Shown here one piece after another: positions 52,445 through 64,000 of a stretch of DNA of 64,000 nucleotides. Each line of letters begins with the position of its first letter. Position 1 is the stretch's first letter. The notes beneath the pieces are model-generated. The model worked only from the letters and a program-made list of their open reading frames with translations. It was not told where the DNA came from and made no database searches. The stretch lies in NCBI GenBank assembly GCA_002842095.1, contig PHCB01000007.1, positions 1 to 64,000 of the forward strand, in the 5' to 3' direction. Made by a program: the position numbers and the translations under genes. This DNA is from a candidate division BRC1 bacterium HGW-BRC1-1. GTDB taxonomy: Bacteria > Sumerlaeota > Sumerlaeia > Sumerlaeales > Sumerlaeaceae.

Positions 52445-53290
52445 TCAGTCTGGGTGCAGCTCGATGCCCTTCATGGCGGCCTGATCGCGGGCCTGATCGG
52501 TGATGATGGCGTCGCGGGCGTGATTGAGTACTTTGCCGCCGTGGGACGCAACGCGCCAGACGTCTTCGGCGGTCACGAACTCGCGCTTCTGCGTGGGACG
52601 GGTGCGGGCCAGGCGGGCCGGGGTTTCGTTGACCACTGGTGTGAAGTGAGCCTGTACGATGCGGGCAAGCGACGCGGTGTCGATAAATTGAATGCCGATC
52701 TGCTGCAACTTGCGCAAATGATCCTCGGCGGTGCGAAGGACCGGCGGGGGAGCGGCGGCAAGTTGGTCCGCGAGGTCGCGACTCAAGGCGGCGATGTCAG
52801 TGCCAACAAAAATAGGTTTGTCTGCGGCGAGGCATGAAGCGACCAGTCGCGTCGGGGCGGAATCGGCAATGCCCAGGGCGATCTTTGCGGTGGTGTTGGT
52901 GCTGAAATGGGGCGCAATGACAGCTGTGAAATGAGCGCACAGGGCCGCGAAATCCACCTCGTTTTCAGGTGATATCAGCCGCGTGCCCGCTGGCAATAAT
53001 TTCAAGGTGGCAGCCGGGTCATGAAATTGCGCGTAAGTGTGGCTAAGCAGAAGCGCGAAGGACCGGCCTGCCGCAGCGAGGTTGGATAACTCTTTCATGA
53101 AATCAGCCGACGGAGGTTGAGAACCGGTAAAGAGAATCGCCGTTTCCGAAACTGGGATCGGTGGCTGGGTCGGTGCGGTTGCCGCGTTGGGAGTGTTGCT
53201 TGGAGGAGAAACCGCGGCAGAGTTTTCGAGGGCTTGCAACGCGGCTATAACCTCGGCGCGCACACGGTCGCGCAGATTTTCCATGTCCAT
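52445..53290 (-). CDS. Flavoprotein-like protein with putative microcompartment encapsulation peptide
   Basis: 281 aa. The first 20 residues (ENLRDRVRAEVIAALQAL) form an amphipathic helix. A Pro/Ala/Ser/Thr-rich linker (about 25-50) follows, the pattern of N-terminal encapsulation peptides on BMC cargo. The core (about 55-230) has flavoprotein-like strands and loops (ILFTGSQPPSADFMKEL, AVIAPHFSTNTTAKIALGIADSAP, ADKPIFVGTDI). The C-terminal EDVWRVASHGGKVLNHARDAIITDQARDQA resembles ends of BMC-linked proteins. The BMC-H gene lies 107 bp upstream. The family call is tentative and the ligand unknown. The ATG at 53284 is an alternative start. Confidence 0.6.
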   Translation of the reverse strand: MDMENLRDRVRAEVIAALQALENSAAVSPPSNTPNAATAPTQPPIPVSETAILFTGSQPPSADFMKELSNLAAAGRSFALLLSHTYAQFHDPAATLKLLPAGTRLISPENEVDFAALCAHFTAVIAPHFSTNTTAKIALGIADSAPTRLVASCLAADKPIFVGTDIAALSRDLADQLAAAPPPVLRTAEDHLRKLQQIGIQFIDTASLARIVQAHFTPVVNETPARLARTRPTQKREFVTAEDVWRVASHGGKVLNHARDAIITDQARDQAAMKGIELHPD

Positions 53291-53397
53291 TGCGGCGCTA
53301 TGGTGGGGGGGTGTGGTCACGTTTGAGCAAAGCACCGAACCCACGCTTTGTGGGCGCGGGTCCGGCGTCTTTCACAAATCTTCGTGATGAGTTTTCG

Positions 53398-53685
53398 TCA
53401 GCCCTGCGGAAGGATTTTTTCGAGATCGTTGTGGGGGCGGGCGATGACATGCACGCTGATGAGTTCTCCCACACGGCGTGCTGCCGCAGCTCCGGCGTCG
53501 GTGGCTGCTTTCACAGCGCCCACGTCACCGCGCACCATCACGGTTACCAGGCCGCCGCCCACGTGTTCCTTGCCGAGCAGTCGCACGTTGGCTGCTTTCA
53601 CCATGGCGTCAGCCGCCTCGATGGATCCCACCAAGCCACGGGTCTCAATCAGGCCCAGCGCGTTTCCGTAAATTTCGTCCGCCAT
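53398..53685 (-). CDS. Bacterial microcompartment shell protein (BMC-H, PduA/EutM type)
   Basis: Small hexameric shell protein, 95 aa. Nearly all of it matches the canonical fold: [56 protein letters not shown], and the ending [16 protein letters not shown]. At the pore position HVGGGLV replaces the PduA-type KIGSGLV, so the pore lining is Gly-Gly-Gly. An AGAGGA site precedes the ATG. It is the only shell gene in the window: a complete compartment needs pentamers (BMC-P) and cargo enzymes that must lie elsewhere. Confidence 0.95.
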
Positions 53686-53735
53686 CGGTAATTCCTCTCG
53701 CTCGTGTTAAATGACAATTTTGAATGAACCGTCCA

Positions 53736-53764
53736 AAAGTATGGTGCTTGTCGGGCGGTGTCAA
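53736..53764 (-). promoter_or_regulatory. Candidate sigma-70 promoter of the BMC-H operon
   Basis: On the minus strand, a perfect TTGACA (53764-53759) is separated by 17 bp from TACTTT (53741-53736), about 50 bp before the BMC-H ATG. Spacing and -35 are ideal, the -10 moderate. Confidence 0.5.
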
Positions 53765-56403: not shown

Positions 56404-57427
56404 CGCGTTTGCGCAGAGATGGGTCCAGGGTCAGGGCGCGCTGAAGCGCATCATTGTGGCGGGCGGTCTGGCCCAGACGCAGGAGGGCTTGTGCGAGACT
56501 CCATTGCACTGATGCGCTGTTTGGCTCCAGTTTGGCCGCCTCACCTAAAGCTTTGGAAGCCTCTTCGTTTTGGTCCGTTGCCAGAAGGGCCTCCCCAAGC
56601 CGGTGCATGTAGTTGCCGTCTTCCGCGCCACCGGTGGCTTCTCCCTCTTTCAGGATCTTTACGGCATCTGCCGGTCGCTCTGCGGTAGTCAGCATTTCCG
56701 CGAGAATTTTGCGTCCCGTGGAGTTGTCAGGATTGGCATTCAACGATGCTTCCATTTCCCGAATGGCGGTATCGTTTTCGCCCTTCGAGCGAGCGAGCCC
56801 TGACCGCAGTTCATGGATAACAGCCACATCACCCCCGGTGGTTTCGTAGCGCGAAATGGCATTTTGTGCCTCAATAAGTCTGCCGGCGCGAAGCCGAATT
56901 TGTGCCAGCACTTTCCAGGTCGTGGCGTCGGATGGATCGCGAATGATGAGCGTGCTGGCGTAGGAATCGGCGTTGTTAATGTCGTCGGCGGCCAAAAAAG
57001 CCAGGGCGCTTGTGCGCACGGCTTTGCGTTCTTCGCCGCCCGCCTCATAAAGGCTCGATAGTCGCTCATAGTGCGGACGCATGTCGGATCCGTACGGGTC
57101 GCCCGGGTACATGGCGAAGGCGCGGGTGTAGAGTTCAGTGGCGGCGGCGTAGTCGGGATCACTGGTTGGGAGAAGCTTGCGGTCGGCGGCTTTGTTAAGT
57201 TCCTCCGATTTTTTCAGAGCGAAGGTCGCACGTTTTTCTGCCTCGCGAAACAACACCTGAGACCGCGAATACCGCCCGGCCTTCACATAGGTGATGTGGT
57301 CGATTATGCGCACAGCGTTGGCGTTCAACGCCCACAGGGCCAACCCCGCCACCGACAGCAGCAACAGCCACAGAATGAAAACCTGGCGTAATTCGCGGCG
57401 CGACGCTTTAAACAAAACAGGTGTCAT
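56390..57427 (-). CDS. Membrane-anchored TPR-repeat protein
   Basis: 345 aa. N-terminal TM helix (about residues 15-36, FILWLLLLSVAGLALWALNA). The rest is helical with TPR units (YAAATELYTRAFAMYPGDP, HYERLSSLYEAGGEERKAV, DAVKILKEGEATGG, ASKALGEAAKLEPNSASVQWSLAQALLRLG and a final copy). A binding scaffold with no enzymatic motif. Its ATG overlaps the stop of the large C25 peptidase gene by 4 nt (ATGA), so translation is coupled and the two probably work together at the envelope, perhaps in export or surface display (inference). Confidence 0.8.
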   Translation of the reverse strand: MTPVLFKASRRELRQVFILWLLLLSVAGLALWALNANAVRIIDHITYVKAGRYSRSQVLFREAEKRATFALKKSEELNKAADRKLLPTSDPDYAAATELYTRAFAMYPGDPYGSDMRPHYERLSSLYEAGGEERKAVRTSALAFLAADDINNADSYASTLIIRDPSDATTWKVLAQIRLRAGRLIEAQNAISRYETTGGDVAVIHELRSGLARSKGENDTAIREMEASLNANPDNSTGRKILAEMLTTAERPADAVKILKEGEATGGAEDGNYMHRLGEALLATDQNEEASKALGEAAKLEPNSASVQWSLAQALLRLGQTARHNDALQRALTLDPSLRKRVMEK

Positions 57428-60400
57428 TTTATCGTCAGTTCCACTTTAGAGATAACCGGCATTACGGCATTGCCCGGTGCCGGTATGGCGACCAACTTCC
57501 ATTGCAGAAGGTCATCGAGAGGTTCGGTTTCAGCTTCGTTGGGTTGCAAGGCCGACCACGCAGACCACTCGATGTCATGGTCACCCTGCCACTTCCCTGT
57601 CCTCCACGCAACCAGCACCTTCGTTTCCGACGGGAAATCTCCGACGGCTGATAAGAGGGCGGTCCTTCCGTGATCGCGTTCAGGCACCTCCCACAGCGGC
57701 GATTCGATCACGCCCGCTGCAAGGCGGTACTGGAACGCTGCCAGCCTCACGCCCACCGTGGGCGGTTGGCGCAGCGCCACGGCAACGCTGGTCGTGGCCC
57801 AGGTATCCGTCGCCAGGGGAATGAATTGGTCCGACTCGACATTCACGCCGGCGGGCACATCCACACGCCTGAAAGCTGAGGCGGAAGTGTCCTCGTCGGA
57901 AATCTCCGCACCCACGGCCACATCCATGGCGCCGATGCGGCCACCCTGATAGTTGGGTGAGAACTGTGTGACGCCCAGAAGGGTCAGCGGGATGTCGGCC
58001 TCATGCCCGACAGGCAGCGGCAGTTGCAGAAGTATGGGCGTGGTGCGTTCTTCCCGCTGAGCTGCGAGAAGATACGGGAGGATGGTCCAGCGCTGGTCTT
58101 TGGTCGGTTCCTCCGCCGGTTCCGGCGCGAGGGGATAATCCACAACCCAATCCGGGTCGAAAGGCATGTACCCGGCCACGTGGCTGAAACGGTCGTCGGG
58201 ACGCAGAACTCCACCGGGCAACATCTGCATGTTGGTGACGGTGCATTCGCCCAGAATGGTGGTGAAATCGTAGCGGTTTCCAACGCGAGGCACCTTGTCC
58301 AAAGCCCGCACAACCTGAAGCGCGGTTTGGGTGGTGTTGTCGCCACCGTCGAGTTCTTCCAACTCGCGGGATGCATTGATGTTCGCGAATGCCACGGGCA
58401 TGCGTGCATGCAGGGCCAGTGTGGTGTTGAAGTCAGCGGGTGTGTTGGGTTCCATCAGCGGGAATTTGTGGCGAACCTTGCGGGATTCTCCATCCAGCGG
58501 GTTCTGGAAACCGGTCTCCAGTTCAACGGGGCCGTCAGCAAATGATCCCGATGACATGGCCGACACATGCAGGGTTGCGCTGGTGCCTTCACGTCCCACA
58601 AGGGGCGTCACGTTGAAGGAGGAGATGGTGTAATTCGTGATTGCATTGAGGTCAAACGGCGGCACCGCGATGGCATTGTTTTCGGTGCTCGTTTCGCGGA
58701 CGCTTCCGGTGCGATTGATGGTCAGCCACAAGTTGGGCTGGCCTCCGGCTGTGCGCGCATTTTCCCAACGGAAGGTGACGGGCACGGTTTCGTCGGGCGC
58801 GATGCTTGCGATGATGGTCTGATTGGTGTCGTTGATCGTTTGCATCTCTTTGCCGGTTTTTGGATCATCACCGAGCAGTTGCAACGCAACGCTTCGCGCC
58901 TCCACGCGGCCCGCATTGTGCAGTTGGGCGTGGATGTATACCGTGCTCTGGGCCGTGAGGCGACCCTGGGATCCTGTCACACGCACGGAATCAGGCTGAA
59001 ACATGAGGTCAGGGCCAGCCAGAACGTTGAGCACCACCGTGTGCGAAGTGCCGACGTTCGCCGCCCGTTGGCTGGGCGAGGTGTCTTCGTCGCGGGGGCG
59101 GATGAACAGTTCAAAATCATGGCGACCCTCGGCCAGAGGCGCACGAAGCGCCAGCGTGCCATCCCGCCATCCGAGGGGGGGAATTCCGGAGACGGTTCCC
59201 TCCTCGGTCAGCATGGAGCCCTTCTCCCAAAGCGACGTGCGCAGGTTGTTCAGGGTGCCGGTGGTGGTGTTGAACAGTCGGAAGTTTATGGTGGGTGTAT
59301 CGGCGGATGAGACCACTTCCGGTGTCCATCGCATGGCGCTGGGCGGCAGTTGCACGGGGGGAGTGGTAAGGGAATCGGCCAGTATGACCGGGGCAAGCGT
59401 GGTGGTTGTGCGGAGGGAGTTGTCGCCCGATGCGGCTCTCACCCACAAGTCGTCACCCATTGTCGAGTTCCATGGGAATTCAGCGTTCAGAGATTCCAAC
59501 GGAGCCAGATCGGCATGGGTGTCGAAGAGCACGCGGGGCGAGGTGGTGGACTCGACATCGGCCGGCGCCTTGGCCGTGATGCGAATGTTGTTCATGGCCA
59601 CATTCGTCGGATTGAACACCTTGATCGTTACGGTGGTGTAGTCGTCCGGGTCTTCGCCATTCAGCATCATGGGCGTCGTGGTGGCCGTGTCGATGGCGGG
59701 CAAAGGTACGGCGGCACTCAGACGCGAGGCAACCAGCAGCGGAGGCGTCCGGTCCAGCGACCGCACCACCGCGGCATATTCGCCCACAGGCAGATGAACT
59801 GCGACGTGGGTGAAGAGTTTGCCCTCTTCGAAAAGGACTTGCTGACTTGTCAGATCGTCACCGGATTCCAGCGAGCGAATTGCCAGAACAGCCGTGAAAG
59901 TTTCTGACGAACCTGTATCCAACGAAGCGGTGGTGGTGATGGATTTGTTTGCCGGAACGCTGGTCGGTTCAATGGACAACCCGCCATGGATTGGCGGAAT
60001 GATGAGCCGCGTACCGGGGTCGCCCACGAGGACGAATTGCTCGGGCAGGCTTGTCGACATGGTTTCGGCGAGATAGAAATTCTTGGCGTGGACGGTTATG
60101 TCACCCTGCACACGCACATTGCGCCGATAGATGGCGTCCATCATGTGGCTGACAAGTGTCTGATGCTCGAAGGGGCTGGCCCCGGCAACGGGGGCAAAGA
60201 TCCCGATGGCGCCGCCGTTGGGGTTTTTCAGGAATAGCTCACCCATGGAAACGGTGACGGGAGGCACGGGGTAATCCAGCCAGGCGTTGTCGCAACTGGC
60301 GCAAGTGAGTAGCGGAAGCCGCAGCGAGTTCTGGAGATGGGGGAGTTCCACAGCCACGTGGAACAGCCGTTCGTGGGTCCAGAGGTTCGGCCCCCCGTGA

Positions 60401-62826
60401 CCAAAGAAGGTCATCGTTCCCACGCCTTCGTTCCAGGCCTCCAACAACGCCGAGGTGGCGGTGCGGCTGCGGCGTCTGGCGCTCACCTTTGTGTTGGGTT
60501 CATACGGGTAATCGGATTGTTTGAAGCGCACAGCCTGCAGATAAGGCGTGGCCGCGCGGGCGATGACGTTGTCCACCACGCGCGGAAACTCTTCGTTGTC
60601 GTCCATCACAAATTTTGCGGCCATTGCCCATTCCGGATCGGGGTTCTTCTCGTAGGCGATGATCTTCTCGATGGTGGAAGTCAGTTCGTCGGGAGTGGCG
60701 ACGGAGATGCGGCCGACGGCGAGGTCGACAAAGCCATCGGTGCCGGCCGCCAGGGCGTACCAGTGATCGCCGTGGGGCGTGTCGACTCGCGCGTTTCCAA
60801 ACACCGGGACCATATCCGCCTGCCCTCCGCGGGGCATGGCGGCGGGGTCGGCTTTGTAGTCGCTCGCCTCGCCCACCAACAGGACTTTTTGCAGGACGGA
60901 TGCGGGCCATGTGGCGAAGGCGTAGGCGAAGAAATCCTTCAAGCCGGCCGGATCGCGAAGGCCGTAGCTGAAATGATCGAAAACGGTATCCACGTCCACT
61001 GCCGCCACGGTGTGACCCAACGAGGCGCGGTAATCGAGGAGCGGCTTCAGCCTGTCCATGAGCGAACGGTGGGCCACGGCGAGATAATCGCCGTGAAAAT
61101 TTGCCTCGGTGAAAAGGTTGAACGGTTGCGCCAATTCAACGTGAGGAAGCAACGGCTGGTCGGGTCGCACCAGGCGATAGCTTTGGCGCGCACCACCCGG
61201 ATCGCTGAAGCGGAGCATCCCGTCATTCTCCAACCGGGGCGACAGAACAACTTCGTCGTCGCGTCCCTCAATGAACATCAGCGGCTGCGGCGCGCCGGGC
61301 GAAGGAGCGGCTACGGCAAAGCTTGCTGGCTCGGTCGTCAGGCCGTCCACGGTGAACACCGTTTGCCCGTCAATCGGCGAGGCGGCGGGGGAACCGTATG
61401 TCAGATCAAGACGATGGATGCTGATTTCACTGTGCTGAACCGCCGAAGCGGGATACCGCAACCGCAGACCGAAAGCATTGCTGCCGGAGGTCACGGCATC
61501 GGAGGGAATCGAGAATTCGACTTTCCCCTGAGTGCCCTGGACACCAACCAGACCCATGCTTATCCCGTTTGCGATGAGCTCCATTTCTGGCGCGCCATTG
61601 ATGGGGTTTAAGATCGAGAAATACGCGCGCAGTTGCACGCTGGTGGCGGCATCGGCGGAGTACGTTGCAGGCAGCGCCACGTCGAACTCACCCACTTCGC
61701 CATCGCCCATGCTTTTCCAAATCCAGCGGGAAATGCCTTCGGCCGCTCTCACGCGATTATTATACTGCTCGCGCTCCTGGCTGCGAACGAGAGTCTTTAT
61801 GTTCCGAACGGACGTTGCGCTGGTCATGGCTTCGGAAACGGTCTCGGTGGCCACGGGTTTTATGCGCAAGGGAGGCGTGGTGTCAGCGTCCGTGCCGCCG
61901 TTGATGAGGAGCCAGTAGACATCCGCGCCTTTGAGTTCCACGTCGAAATCAGGCACGGAGAAAAGAGCCGCCGACGGGGAAGTCAAACCATCCGTCACCA
62001 GAGGAACCTCCTGCCCACCGTGAAAGAGCCGCCAGGCCGATGGATCGTCCGCCGACGGAGGGAGGTGCAATGTTGCGGCATCGAGACCGTACACACCGGG
62101 TTCGTACACCGATAATTTCAGCACCGGCCCGTGGGCCAGGGCGGTGTTCACTCTGGCCGCCCATTCGCGTTGTGGCTCCCAGCGCTCGGGTTTCTCGGGA
62201 GGCAGCAGATACGCCCCATCGATTTGCGGATTCAGCAAGTTCGGCGAAACCATCGGATCGAAACTATCGGTTGTTGATGCGGCGGTGGTGGGCGGCGGCC
62301 CCAGGTCGATTTCCGTGTCTGCCCAGTCCAGCATCCAATATCCGGCTGTCCCCAGATTGCGTGTGGCGGCTACTTCTCGCGTGAGGCTTAAGCCGTAAAC
62401 CTGATGGTTGCGGAAACGCCCTGCTGCGGTGATGCGGAACCATTGTGGCGGAGCAGGACCATCCACCGTGGAGGGTATCACCGAGGTCTCTGCGGTGATA
62501 CGTCCGTTCTCCACGTAATAATAATGACCCCGGGTGATTGTCACGTTGGGTTGCTTGCCGGTGGCCCCCGCGATCATGAAAACCGCCGGCCAGGTGCGCG
62601 GAGCCGGGCGCGTAGCCTGCGATAAGTTTTCGAATCGAACGCGCAGCACTCCGGAAGTGGCACCGTCTGTGGCAACCCGCACGTCCTGCGACGGGAAATC
62701 CGGCGCACCTGCCCCCACTACCTGAAGGGGCAACGGGGCGGGCGAATCAGTTGCCCCGGCGGGCGATCCGCAAAGAGCAATGGCGGCGGCGGCCAGCAAA
62801 CCGAAAGTTTTAATGAGGCACGCCAT
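57424..62826 (-). CDS. Very large secreted C25 (gingipain-like) cysteine peptidase
   Basis: About 1800 aa. Signal peptide MACLIKTFGLLAAAAIALCGSPAGA, from the ATG at 62826; a GTG ten codons earlier overlaps deoB. Residues about 30-560 hold beta-rich domains. The C25 catalytic domain (about 600-990) has the catalytic His810 in TFFGHGGPNLW and Cys842 in LLTCASCDNAW, the usual dyad. LVGDPGTRLIIPP ends the domain. Beyond 1000 the sequence is a chain of CARDB-like beta-sandwich repeats. I saw no short type IX-secretion sorting domain. Between deoB and the TPR gene, overlapping the latter by 4 nt. Confidence 0.85.
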   Translation of the reverse strand: MACLIKTFGLLAAAAIALCGSPAGATDSPAPLPLQVVGAGAPDFPSQDVRVATDGATSGVLRVRFENLSQATRPAPRTWPAVFMIAGATGKQPNVTITRGHYYYVENGRITAETSVIPSTVDGPAPPQWFRITAAGRFRNHQVYGLSLTREVAATRNLGTAGYWMLDWADTEIDLGPPPTTAASTTDSFDPMVSPNLLNPQIDGAYLLPPEKPERWEPQREWAARVNTALAHGPVLKLSVYEPGVYGLDAATLHLPPSADDPSAWRLFHGGQEVPLVTDGLTSPSAALFSVPDFDVELKGADVYWLLINGGTDADTTPPLRIKPVATETVSEAMTSATSVRNIKTLVRSQEREQYNNRVRAAEGISRWIWKSMGDGEVGEFDVALPATYSADAATSVQLRAYFSILNPINGAPEMELIANGISMGLVGVQGTQGKVEFSIPSDAVTSGSNAFGLRLRYPASAVQHSEISIHRLDLTYGSPAASPIDGQTVFTVDGLTTEPASFAVAAPSPGAPQPLMFIEGRDDEVVLSPRLENDGMLRFSDPGGARQSYRLVRPDQPLLPHVELAQPFNLFTEANFHGDYLAVAHRSLMDRLKPLLDYRASLGHTVAAVDVDTVFDHFSYGLRDPAGLKDFFAYAFATWPASVLQKVLLVGEASDYKADPAAMPRGGQADMVPVFGNARVDTPHGDHWYALAAGTDGFVDLAVGRISVATPDELTSTIEKIIAYEKNPDPEWAMAAKFVMDDNEEFPRVVDNVIARAATPYLQAVRFKQSDYPYEPNTKVSARRRSRTATSALLEAWNEGVGTMTFFGHGGPNLWTHERLFHVAVELPHLQNSLRLPLLTCASCDNAWLDYPVPPVTVSMGELFLKNPNGGAIGIFAPVAGASPFEHQTLVSHMMDAIYRRNVRVQGDITVHAKNFYLAETMSTSLPEQFVLVGDPGTRLIIPPIHGGLSIEPTSVPANKSITTTASLDTGSSETFTAVLAIRSLESGDDLTSQQVLFEEGKLFTHVAVHLPVGEYAAVVRSLDRTPPLLVASRLSAAVPLPAIDTATTTPMMLNGEDPDDYTTVTIKVFNPTNVAMNNIRITAKAPADVESTTSPRVLFDTHADLAPLESLNAEFPWNSTMGDDLWVRAASGDNSLRTTTTLAPVILADSLTTPPVQLPPSAMRWTPEVVSSADTPTINFRLFNTTTGTLNNLRTSLWEKGSMLTEEGTVSGIPPLGWRDGTLALRAPLAEGRHDFELFIRPRDEDTSPSQRAANVGTSHTVVLNVLAGPDLMFQPDSVRVTGSQGRLTAQSTVYIHAQLHNAGRVEARSVALQLLGDDPKTGKEMQTINDTNQTIIASIAPDETVPVTFRWENARTAGGQPNLWLTINRTGSVRETSTENNAIAVPPFDLNAITNYTISSFNVTPLVGREGTSATLHVSAMSSGSFADGPVELETGFQNPLDGESRKVRHKFPLMEPNTPADFNTTLALHARMPVAFANINASRELEELDGGDNTTQTALQVVRALDKVPRVGNRYDFTTILGECTVTNMQMLPGGVLRPDDRFSHVAGYMPFDPDWVVDYPLAPEPAEEPTKDQRWTILPYLLAAQREERTTPILLQLPLPVGHEADIPLTLLGVTQFSPNYQGGRIGAMDVAVGAEISDEDTSASAFRRVDVPAGVNVESDQFIPLATDTWATTSVAVALRQPPTVGVRLAAFQYRLAAGVIESPLWEVPERDHGRTALLSAVGDFPSETKVLVAWRTGKWQGDHDIEWSAWSALQPNEAETEPLDDLLQWKLVAIPAPGNAVMPVISKVELTIK

Positions 62827-62846
62827 CAATTGACGGTCGCCGGTGA

Positions 62847-64000
62847 TTACTTCCACAACAGCTCCTTCAAAAAGCTTCGCCCCGCTTCGGTGGGTGCGAC
62901 ACCAAGAAAATCGGCGCAGGTTGCCCCGATGTCGGCGAAGGTTTTTCGTGTGCCCAGATTCACGCCTGATTTAAAAGCGTGGCTGTACACCAGCAGCGGC
63001 GTGTATTCGCGCGAGTGATCTGAACTGGGCGTGGTCGGGTCGCAGCCGTGGTCCGCTGTGATGATCAGCAGATCCGAGGGCGACAGCGCCTTGATAATCT
63101 TTGGCAGGAACGCATCGAACGTTTCCAGTGCGCGCCGATATCCCACCGTGTCATTGCGGTGGCCGTATAACATGTCCGTATCCACCAGGTTCGTGAAAAT
63201 GAGCCCATCGATGGCTTCGTTGATCTGCAGCAGGGTTGCCACCACGCCGTCATCGTTCGACTTCGTGGGCACTTCTTTCGTCAGGCCCTGATGGGCAAAG
63301 ATGTCGCCGATCTTTCCAACGCCGATAACTTCCAGCCCCGCTTCTTTTACATTATCGAGCAACGTGGGTGCGCCCGGAACCACGCTGTAGTCGTGGCGGT
63401 TGCGCGTGCGTTCATAGGCCCCGCTTGTGCCGATGAACGGGCGCGCGATGACCCGGCCCACCCGGTGTGGCCCGTCCAGAATTTCGCGCGCAATGCGGCA
63501 CATCTCGTACAGCCGTTCCAGTGGCACCACCTCTTCGTGGGCGGCGATCTGGAAGACGCTATCGGCCGACGTATAGACGATGGGGAAACCGGTCGCCACA
63601 TGCTCATCGCCAAGACGTTCGATGATCTCCGTGCCGCTGGCCGTGCAATTGCCCAGCGTGCCCATGCCGATGGCCGCCTCGAAGGCGTTCATCACCTCCG
63701 GCGGAAAACCCTCCGGATAAGTGGGAAACGCCACCGGCGTCACCACCCCGGCAATTTCCCAATGGCCCAGTGTGGTGTCCTTTGCGGGAGACATCTCGGT
63801 GCATTTGCCGAAGCCCCCGGTGGGGTGCGCCTCGGGCGGCGTTCCACGAATTTCAACGATGTTACCCAACCCCAGAGCGCCCATGTTCGGCAGGCGCAGA
63901 CCGTCGTCAAAGGCTCGCGAAAGATTGCCAAGGGTATTGCTACCCTCGTCGCCGAAGTCCGCCGCATCGGGCATCTCGCCCGCGCCCACGCTGTCCAGCA
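62847..64000 (-). CDS. deoB: Phosphopentomutase, nearly complete (N-terminus cut by window edge)
   Basis: Interconverts ribose-1- and ribose-5-phosphate (or deoxy forms) in nucleoside salvage; alkaline phosphatase-superfamily fold. The frame is open to the window edge and begins within [25 protein letters not shown], so only about ten residues are missing. Seen: metal ligands in [26 protein letters not shown], the [19 protein letters not shown] segment with the active Thr, and [16 protein letters not shown]. The end KELLWK lies 20 bp from the C25 peptidase ATG, so the genes are likely cotranscribed. Confidence 0.95.

Follow-up and report, generated by a model that had tools for sequence, protein, structure and literature searches.

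A shell gene and its neighbour

We analysed a stretch of 64,000 nucleotides, referred to here as the window, from the candidate division BRC1 bacterium HGW-BRC1-1, a member of Candidatus Sumerlaeota (contig PHCB01000007.1, positions 1 to 64,000). On the minus strand of the window lies a gene for a BMC-H shell protein of bacterial microcompartments (53398–53685), EutM-like and 95 amino acids long, with an intact reading frame. The protein scores 100.2 bits against PF00936 (cut-off 24.5) and 133.6 bits against the NCBIfam EutM model NF012018, just over the cut-off of 133, which bears out an earlier inspection of the letters alone (hereafter the sequence-only reading) that had described a complete PduA/EutM-like shell protein at this place. 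A Shine-Dalgarno-like GAGAGGAA precedes the start codon (53692–53699, minus strand). The same reading had reported a partner gene downstream, in the same orientation and 107 bp away, and coordinates, gap and strand were all right: the partner (52445–53290, minus strand) encodes a protein of 281 residues, here called P0001. The Gly-Gly-Gly pore motif of the shell protein had also been read correctly, though it is ordinary. Indeed, it is the commonest pore state in the phylum, among 25 distinct BMC segments, and is also found in one EutM from Cetobacterium; the idea of an unusual pore was therefore dropped. The second BMC-H of the genome (L006, 9098–9403, minus strand) has Asp-Ala-Gly in its pore segment instead of Gly-Gly-Gly, and Asp-Gly-Gly occurs in G035. 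Because the pore segments of the two BMC-H proteins differ, their hexamers may differ in what passes their pores.

A sigma-70-like promoter had been proposed ahead of the shell gene. A TTGACA hexamer (53759–53764), a 17-nt spacer and the hexamer TACTTT (53736–53741) are present on the minus strand (53736–53764 as a whole), and the proposal stands as far as these elements go; a strict sigma-70 scan of the upstream region returned nothing, since just three of six positions match in the second hexamer. The conclusion drawn from that scan, that there is no promoter, was revised after comparison of seven genomes of the family. TTGACA is kept upstream of BMC-H in all seven, at a similar distance and with flanks that are not conserved, and it is followed after 17–18 nt by a hexamer starting with TA (for example TACTTT, TACAGT or TAGCGT). 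Such a conserved box suggests a vegetative promoter.

Domain architecture of P0001

P0001 is a candidate shell–cargo adaptor made of four parts, all given here on the minus strand: an N-terminal helix resembling an encapsulation peptide (EP), assigned from AlphaFold2 and from homologues (residues 3–26; 53213–53284); a Pro/Ala/Ser/Thr-rich linker predicted to be disordered from pLDDT and composition (residues 27–47; 53150–53212); a domain of the HFCD (UbiX/EpiD/Hal3/DmrB) fold, recognised with VIA-align and Foldseek (residues 48–218; 52637–53149); and a C-terminal module resembling the N-terminus of EutQ, detected with hhalign and hmmsearch and proposed to bind the shell (residues 236–281; 52448–52585). 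The AlphaFold2 model, built from a 15-row alignment, has a mean pLDDT of 88 and a pTM of 0.63. It predicts a helix at residues 3–26 (pLDDT about 90), an unstructured stretch at 28–42 (pLDDT below 50), a compact body at 46–218, and two helices in the C-terminal unit (241–249 and 265–274). Given the low confidence of the linker together with the pTM, the model suggests that the N-terminal helix stands free of the core.

Scored with a matrix derived from BMC aldehyde dehydrogenases, the helix of P0001 ranks within the top 9.6% of a control set of 334 N-termini. Its hydrophobic moment does not stand out, and the helix alone is not exceptional. By composition, the linker ranks within the top 1.2% among 323 proteins. 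Since the EP statistics of a single protein are weak, the argument rests on the family, and nearly all 15 homologues of P0001 begin with the same kind of helix. The EP-like amphipathic helix and linker described in the sequence-only reading were thus confirmed, modestly for P0001 itself and strongly through its homologues.

The sole Pfam domain found in P0001 is PF02441 (Flavoprotein), at 24.4 bits and thus narrowly over the cut-off of 22.7. The best structural match is DmrB (4mwg; VIA-align Z 15.8, rmsd 3.0, 156 residues aligned; Foldseek E 1e-6), and residues 46–218 also align with Hal3 and EpiD (Z 15.4) and with UbiX (Z 13–14). P0001 therefore shares the fold of the HFCD flavoproteins over this span (Z 13–16); it differs from them in having an additional putative targeting helix and shell module, and in that the flavin-site residues are not strictly kept. 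We considered whether P0001 might be an encapsulated redox or decarboxylating flavoenzyme. It would then be an HFCD/DmrB-type FMN protein active in the compartment lumen, where it might, for instance, cooperate with a PduS-like protein in the transfer of cofactors or electrons. The resemblance to DmrB, an FMN cage, and the Pfam match would fit such a role, and so would the S-x-N-T-x-A-K segment retained in most homologues and the gene next downstream in G013, which by eye looks PduS/RnfC-like. However, no neighbour of the window gene was noted as PduS-like, and the PxSANT motif retains its asparagine (N132 in P0001) in 11 of the 15 aligned rows but not in the other 4. Nor was a conserved FMN phosphate-binding (GSIA-type) loop seen after the first strand in the 15-row alignment. 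Moreover, seven residues are identical throughout the 15 rows, namely G199, R236, T240, D243, T264, A267 and A271; all but G199, hence six of seven, belong to the C-terminal unit, and none lies in the flavin site. We consequently judge the flavoenzyme rather improbable, although it is the best of the alternatives weighed here. The earlier description of P0001 as flavoprotein-like holds for the fold, and flavin use is doubtful.

A C-terminal module related to EutQ

The C-terminal unit, missed in the earlier reading, offers a different view of the protein. Residues 3–48 of E. coli EutQ align with residues 237–281 of P0001 (hhalign E 1.6e-7), and in hmmsearch EutQ reaches 38 bits against a profile built from the unit, compared with 8.0 bits for the best of 5,000 EutQ shuffles. 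In Salmonella EutQ, helices H1/H2 (9–41) attach the protein to the shell and helices H3/H4 bind the encapsulation peptides of the cargo (PMC12487888). Because its last 46 residues match the EutQ segment published as shell-binding, P0001 probably links the shell to the enzyme core. It counts against this view that the homology covers a segment of 45 residues and that shell binding is known for Salmonella EutQ only. The sequence-only reading came close in proposing 'cargo or an assembly factor'; the EutQ-like module favours an adaptor over ordinary cargo.

Three known proteins invite comparison. With EutQ of ethanolamine compartments, P0001 shares the 45-residue module matching the shell-binding end, and a role in joining shell and cargo is proposed for it. 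Unlike in EutQ, the module is C-terminal, there is no cupin/acetate kinase domain, and the part that would bind the core is the N-terminal EP-like helix, in place of H3/H4. NCBIfam models matched 15 homologues of P0001 as follows: EutQ in 8, and TIGR02536 ('ethanolamine utilization protein') in 14, weakly and consistently. Proteins of the latter type share an N-terminal signal-like helix and PduL as a neighbour, whereas P0001 itself scores 24.2 bits, far under the cut-off of 152.6, and its best homologue 64.4 bits. The third protein, PduM, also a structural protein, has a signal sequence and helps to connect core and shell (PMC12108088, PMC9132943). Its similarity to P0001 is at most weak and C-terminal, and direct homology was rejected.

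When the module profile was run on a panel of 388 proteins, it matched the N-termini of PVM class II aldolases (23 bits in G021, 19 bits in G006) and the C-terminus of a Cetobacterium TIGR02536 protein (16 bits); PduM (9.5 bits) and EutT (6.7 bits) were not significant. A short open frame in G039 (L062; G039:C382:11312–11467), 94 residues long and adjacent to the second BMC-H of that genome, likewise contains the module (22 bits). The PVM-type class II aldolase of L112 (4781–5860, minus strand) has an N-terminal EutQ-like module and a C-terminal EP-like helix, the mirror image of P0001. We entertain, with somewhat more doubt than belief, the idea that the 45-residue module is a general metabolosome shell-docking domain, mobile between proteins and between termini. 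It would be N-terminal in EutQ and in PVM class II aldolases, whose C-terminus looks EP-like, and C-terminal in TIGR02536 proteins and in the Sumerlaeota adaptor, whose N-terminus is EP-like; the 94-residue frame of G039 would be a further instance. If this were true, a docking module at one end and an EP at the other would be a common way of attaching core to shell, and a short motif that recurs in several otherwise unrelated BMC proteins would be explained.

Distribution and gene order in the phylum

We then compared 40 genomes of the phylum, 26 with shell genes and 14 without. A profile search recovered P0001 homologues in 21 of the 26 and in none of the 14 (Fisher p 5e-7, uncorrected for ancestry), and acylating aldehyde dehydrogenase (AldDH) is present in 25 and none, respectively. 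Weak matches to the profile in other genomes (19–27 bits) were left out; several of them lie in frames of 405–466 aa, as expected for CoaBC-like proteins. A seven-row P0001 alignment run on the genome collection gave six loci. One homologue (L210, G022:C14:94139–94957) was reported with one in-frame TGA.

The homologue adjoins BMC-H in 16 of the 21 genomes. G013 and G012 both have BMC-H, then PduL, then the adaptor, followed in G013 by the PduS-like gene; in one eut locus from Cetobacterium, a weak TIGR02536 relative stands between PduL and EutN; and in one plasmid-borne pdu/GRM locus from Kosakonia the order is PduL-PduM-BMC-P, with PduM in the slot of the Cetobacterium protein. This agreement in gene order between Kosakonia, Cetobacterium and two Sumerlaeota supports an adaptor role. 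In G039, a single open frame joins a P0001-type domain, complete with an N-terminal helix of its own, to the deoxyribose-phosphate aldolase DeoC (hhalign E 3e-11), a Rosetta-stone fusion that also supports an adaptor role. The fusion belongs to a compact locus of the sugar phosphate utilization (SPU) type (L114, 1–6876, minus strand), which comprises the fusion gene, RpiB, BMC-T, a PduS-like gene, AldDH, three BMC-P, BMC-H and PduL.

The structure of the loci varies in the phylum, from compact loci, of the PVM type in G006 and G021 and of the SPU type in G039, through partial clusters such as that of G013, to complete dispersal. Compact PVM-type loci were observed in two Sumerlaeota genomes at L112 (3342–11554) and L113 (6593–12829), with a class II aldolase, a lactate/malate dehydrogenase-like gene, AldDH, PduL and three BMC-P; L112 additionally has acetate kinase and a DeoR regulator. 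The family of the window is fully dispersed: in the single-contig genome G035, the shell genes, AldDH, adaptor and DeoC occupy eight sites.

A compartment without a main locus

The assembly containing the window (3.77 Mb, 34 contigs, 94.8% complete) holds five shell genes, two for BMC-H and three for BMC-P, spread over five sites and three contigs, each single among unrelated genes. The second BMC-H is at C3:300163 and the BMC-P genes are at C3:329758, C2:193887 and C11:72165. Had the window gene been the only shell gene of the genome, the sequence-only reading would have lost its ground; one more BMC-H and three BMC-P were found. That reading had called the pair a 'satellite microcompartment module'. 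Membership of a microcompartment and a single BMC-H at the site both stand, but by definition a satellite presupposes at least one further BMC locus, itself not a satellite, in the same genome (Axen et al., PMC4207490), and there is no main locus elsewhere. With all five shell genes single in an assembly that is 94.8% complete, the satellite was rejected; since each shell gene stands alone, it is the whole compartment that is dispersed.

No BMC-T was found in the genome. A two-domain BMC-T was not found in G000 and G032 but is present in five other family members, so the shell of G000 and G032 would be built of BMC-H and BMC-P alone. Among seven dispersed genes, no common upstream motif rose above shuffles, which counts against the explanation preferred below. 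Altogether, the compartment resembles the FRAG types of Sutter et al. (2021, PMC8217296), with which it shares shell genes at many sites and no main locus, three BMC-P, an AldDH, and the location of most genes far from known enzymes. The published FRAG types have no assigned function, whereas here an EP-bearing AldDH and DeoC and the adaptor suggest one. We use 'FRAG-like' as a descriptive fit, based on the number and placement of the shell genes; the published classes are defined by shell-protein HMMs.

Enzymes and probable pathway

The signature enzymes, which the sequence-only reading had suggested may lie outside the window, were indeed found at unlinked sites. The acylating AldDH is of the BMC type (C31:113986–115437; PRK15398, 611 bits) and starts MDDRTISQIVDEVTRRLQSGAPTPAPTAG. 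DeoC (C24:43509–44405; TIGR00126, 278 bits) is the sole PF01791 match in the genome; its core starts at about residue 79, and its first 35 residues are MKSGLMDNLRPDQIEQIVRAVVERVSASMAQGASA. Against the BMC-AldDH matrix, the EP-like N-termini score 19 bits for AldDH (leave-one-out) and 16 bits for DeoC. Other AldDH matches were set aside, one on C2 with no EP-like start seen in its frame and one on C25 that reads as ProA. The gene for RpiB (PF02502, 160 bits) is a common one; here it is 3.6 kb away from the second BMC-H, and its product lacks a targeting helix. Finally, the phosphopentomutase gene deoB, whose product supplies deoxyribose-5-phosphate, is cut by the window end (62847–63998, minus strand; PRK05362, 518 bits; TIGR01696, 458 bits). 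Its distance to the window BMC-H is 9 kb, and it is a possible pathway partner. Three loci of relatives (L118, L191, L192) also have deoB less than 10 kb from the pair of BMC-H and adaptor genes. Between the BMC-H pair and deoB, a secreted-looking protein of 1810 aa is encoded (57424–62856, minus strand), segments of which resemble, on visual inspection alone, a peptidase of the gingipain type (C25).

The likely pathway leads from deoxyribose-5-phosphate through acetaldehyde to acetyl-CoA, and deoB to AldDH together would cover the steps from deoxyribose-1-phosphate to acetyl-CoA. The probable role of the compartment is to degrade deoxyribose, the sugar of DNA. The same pathway has been proposed for the SPU BMC, with which this genome shares a DeoC-type PF01791 protein and an acylating AldDH; an RpiB of PF02502 is encoded as well, although the gene is a common one, and a relative, G039, has the compact SPU-type locus described above. 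The window genome differs in that its genes are unlinked and form no locus, its RpiB lacks a targeting helix and no PduL was found in it. The absence of PduL extends to two relatives, one of them a single-contig genome; it counts against our preferred explanation, since coenzyme A recycling is thereby left unexplained.

A further point against it is that an EP-like N-terminus of DeoC also occurs in G024 and G017, where no shell genes were found (assemblies 84–85% complete), and in the PVM-type genome G021. In G024 and G017 (L158, L159) either contigs are missing or the EP-like DeoC is a relic of a lost compartment. These three genomes made the rule that DeoC has no EP in PVM or BMC-free genomes too simple, and we abandoned it. 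The dispersed compartment might instead serve a PVM-like pathway, from fuculose or rhamnulose phosphate to lactaldehyde, the EP-like helix of DeoC being incidental. The compact PVM-type loci with class II aldolase in two relatives are consistent with this, as is the EP-like start of DeoC in G021. The AldDH tree does not group the enzyme of the window genome with that of the SPU-type G039 and is compatible with PVM kinship; its base is poorly resolved, and it does not decide between SPU and PVM kinship. The window genome itself, however, has no PVM-type locus and no class II aldolase (PF00596), the signature enzyme of PVM, beside any shell gene, its DeoC carries an EP-like N-terminus, and DeoC is fused to the adaptor in G039; a PVM-like pathway is therefore unlikely. 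As for a decaying, non-functional remnant, which the scattered genes and the missing PduL and BMC-T might evoke, it is very improbable, as every shell and enzyme frame is intact and the same set persists in seven family genomes, where the promoter box is conserved and the AldDH proteins are 63–66% identical.

Proposed mechanism and significance

We think it fairly likely, on balance, that the pair in the window represents one of the sites of a FRAG-like, dispersed metabolosome and that P0001 is a shell–core adaptor with an HFCD spacer. According to this model, the N-terminal helix of P0001 would join the core of EP-bearing enzymes through helix–helix contacts, and the C-terminal EutQ-like module would dock on the EutM-like hexamer encoded by the gene just upstream. 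The HFCD domain would serve as an oligomeric spacer, its flavin chemistry being probably lost or no longer needed. The model builds on observed genes, predicted folds, homology, co-occurrence, adjacency, the fusion and the conserved promoter; from these, the substrate, the localisation, the binding partners and the loss of flavin chemistry are inferred. The elements of this scenario are already known singly, namely dispersed BMCs, SPU chemistry, encapsulation peptides and EutQ-type adaptors. In the open-licence papers searched, we did not find their combination: an HFCD-fold adaptor, bearing an EP-like helix and a EutQ-like shell module at opposite ends, within a fully dispersed compartment that can be read from its tags.

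FRAG compartments have been catalogued without a function or a locus, and the tags on unlinked enzymes allow the pathway to be read from the genome. If P0001 is indeed an adaptor, it would give a handle on how shell and core meet in metabolosomes lacking both PduB and EutQ.
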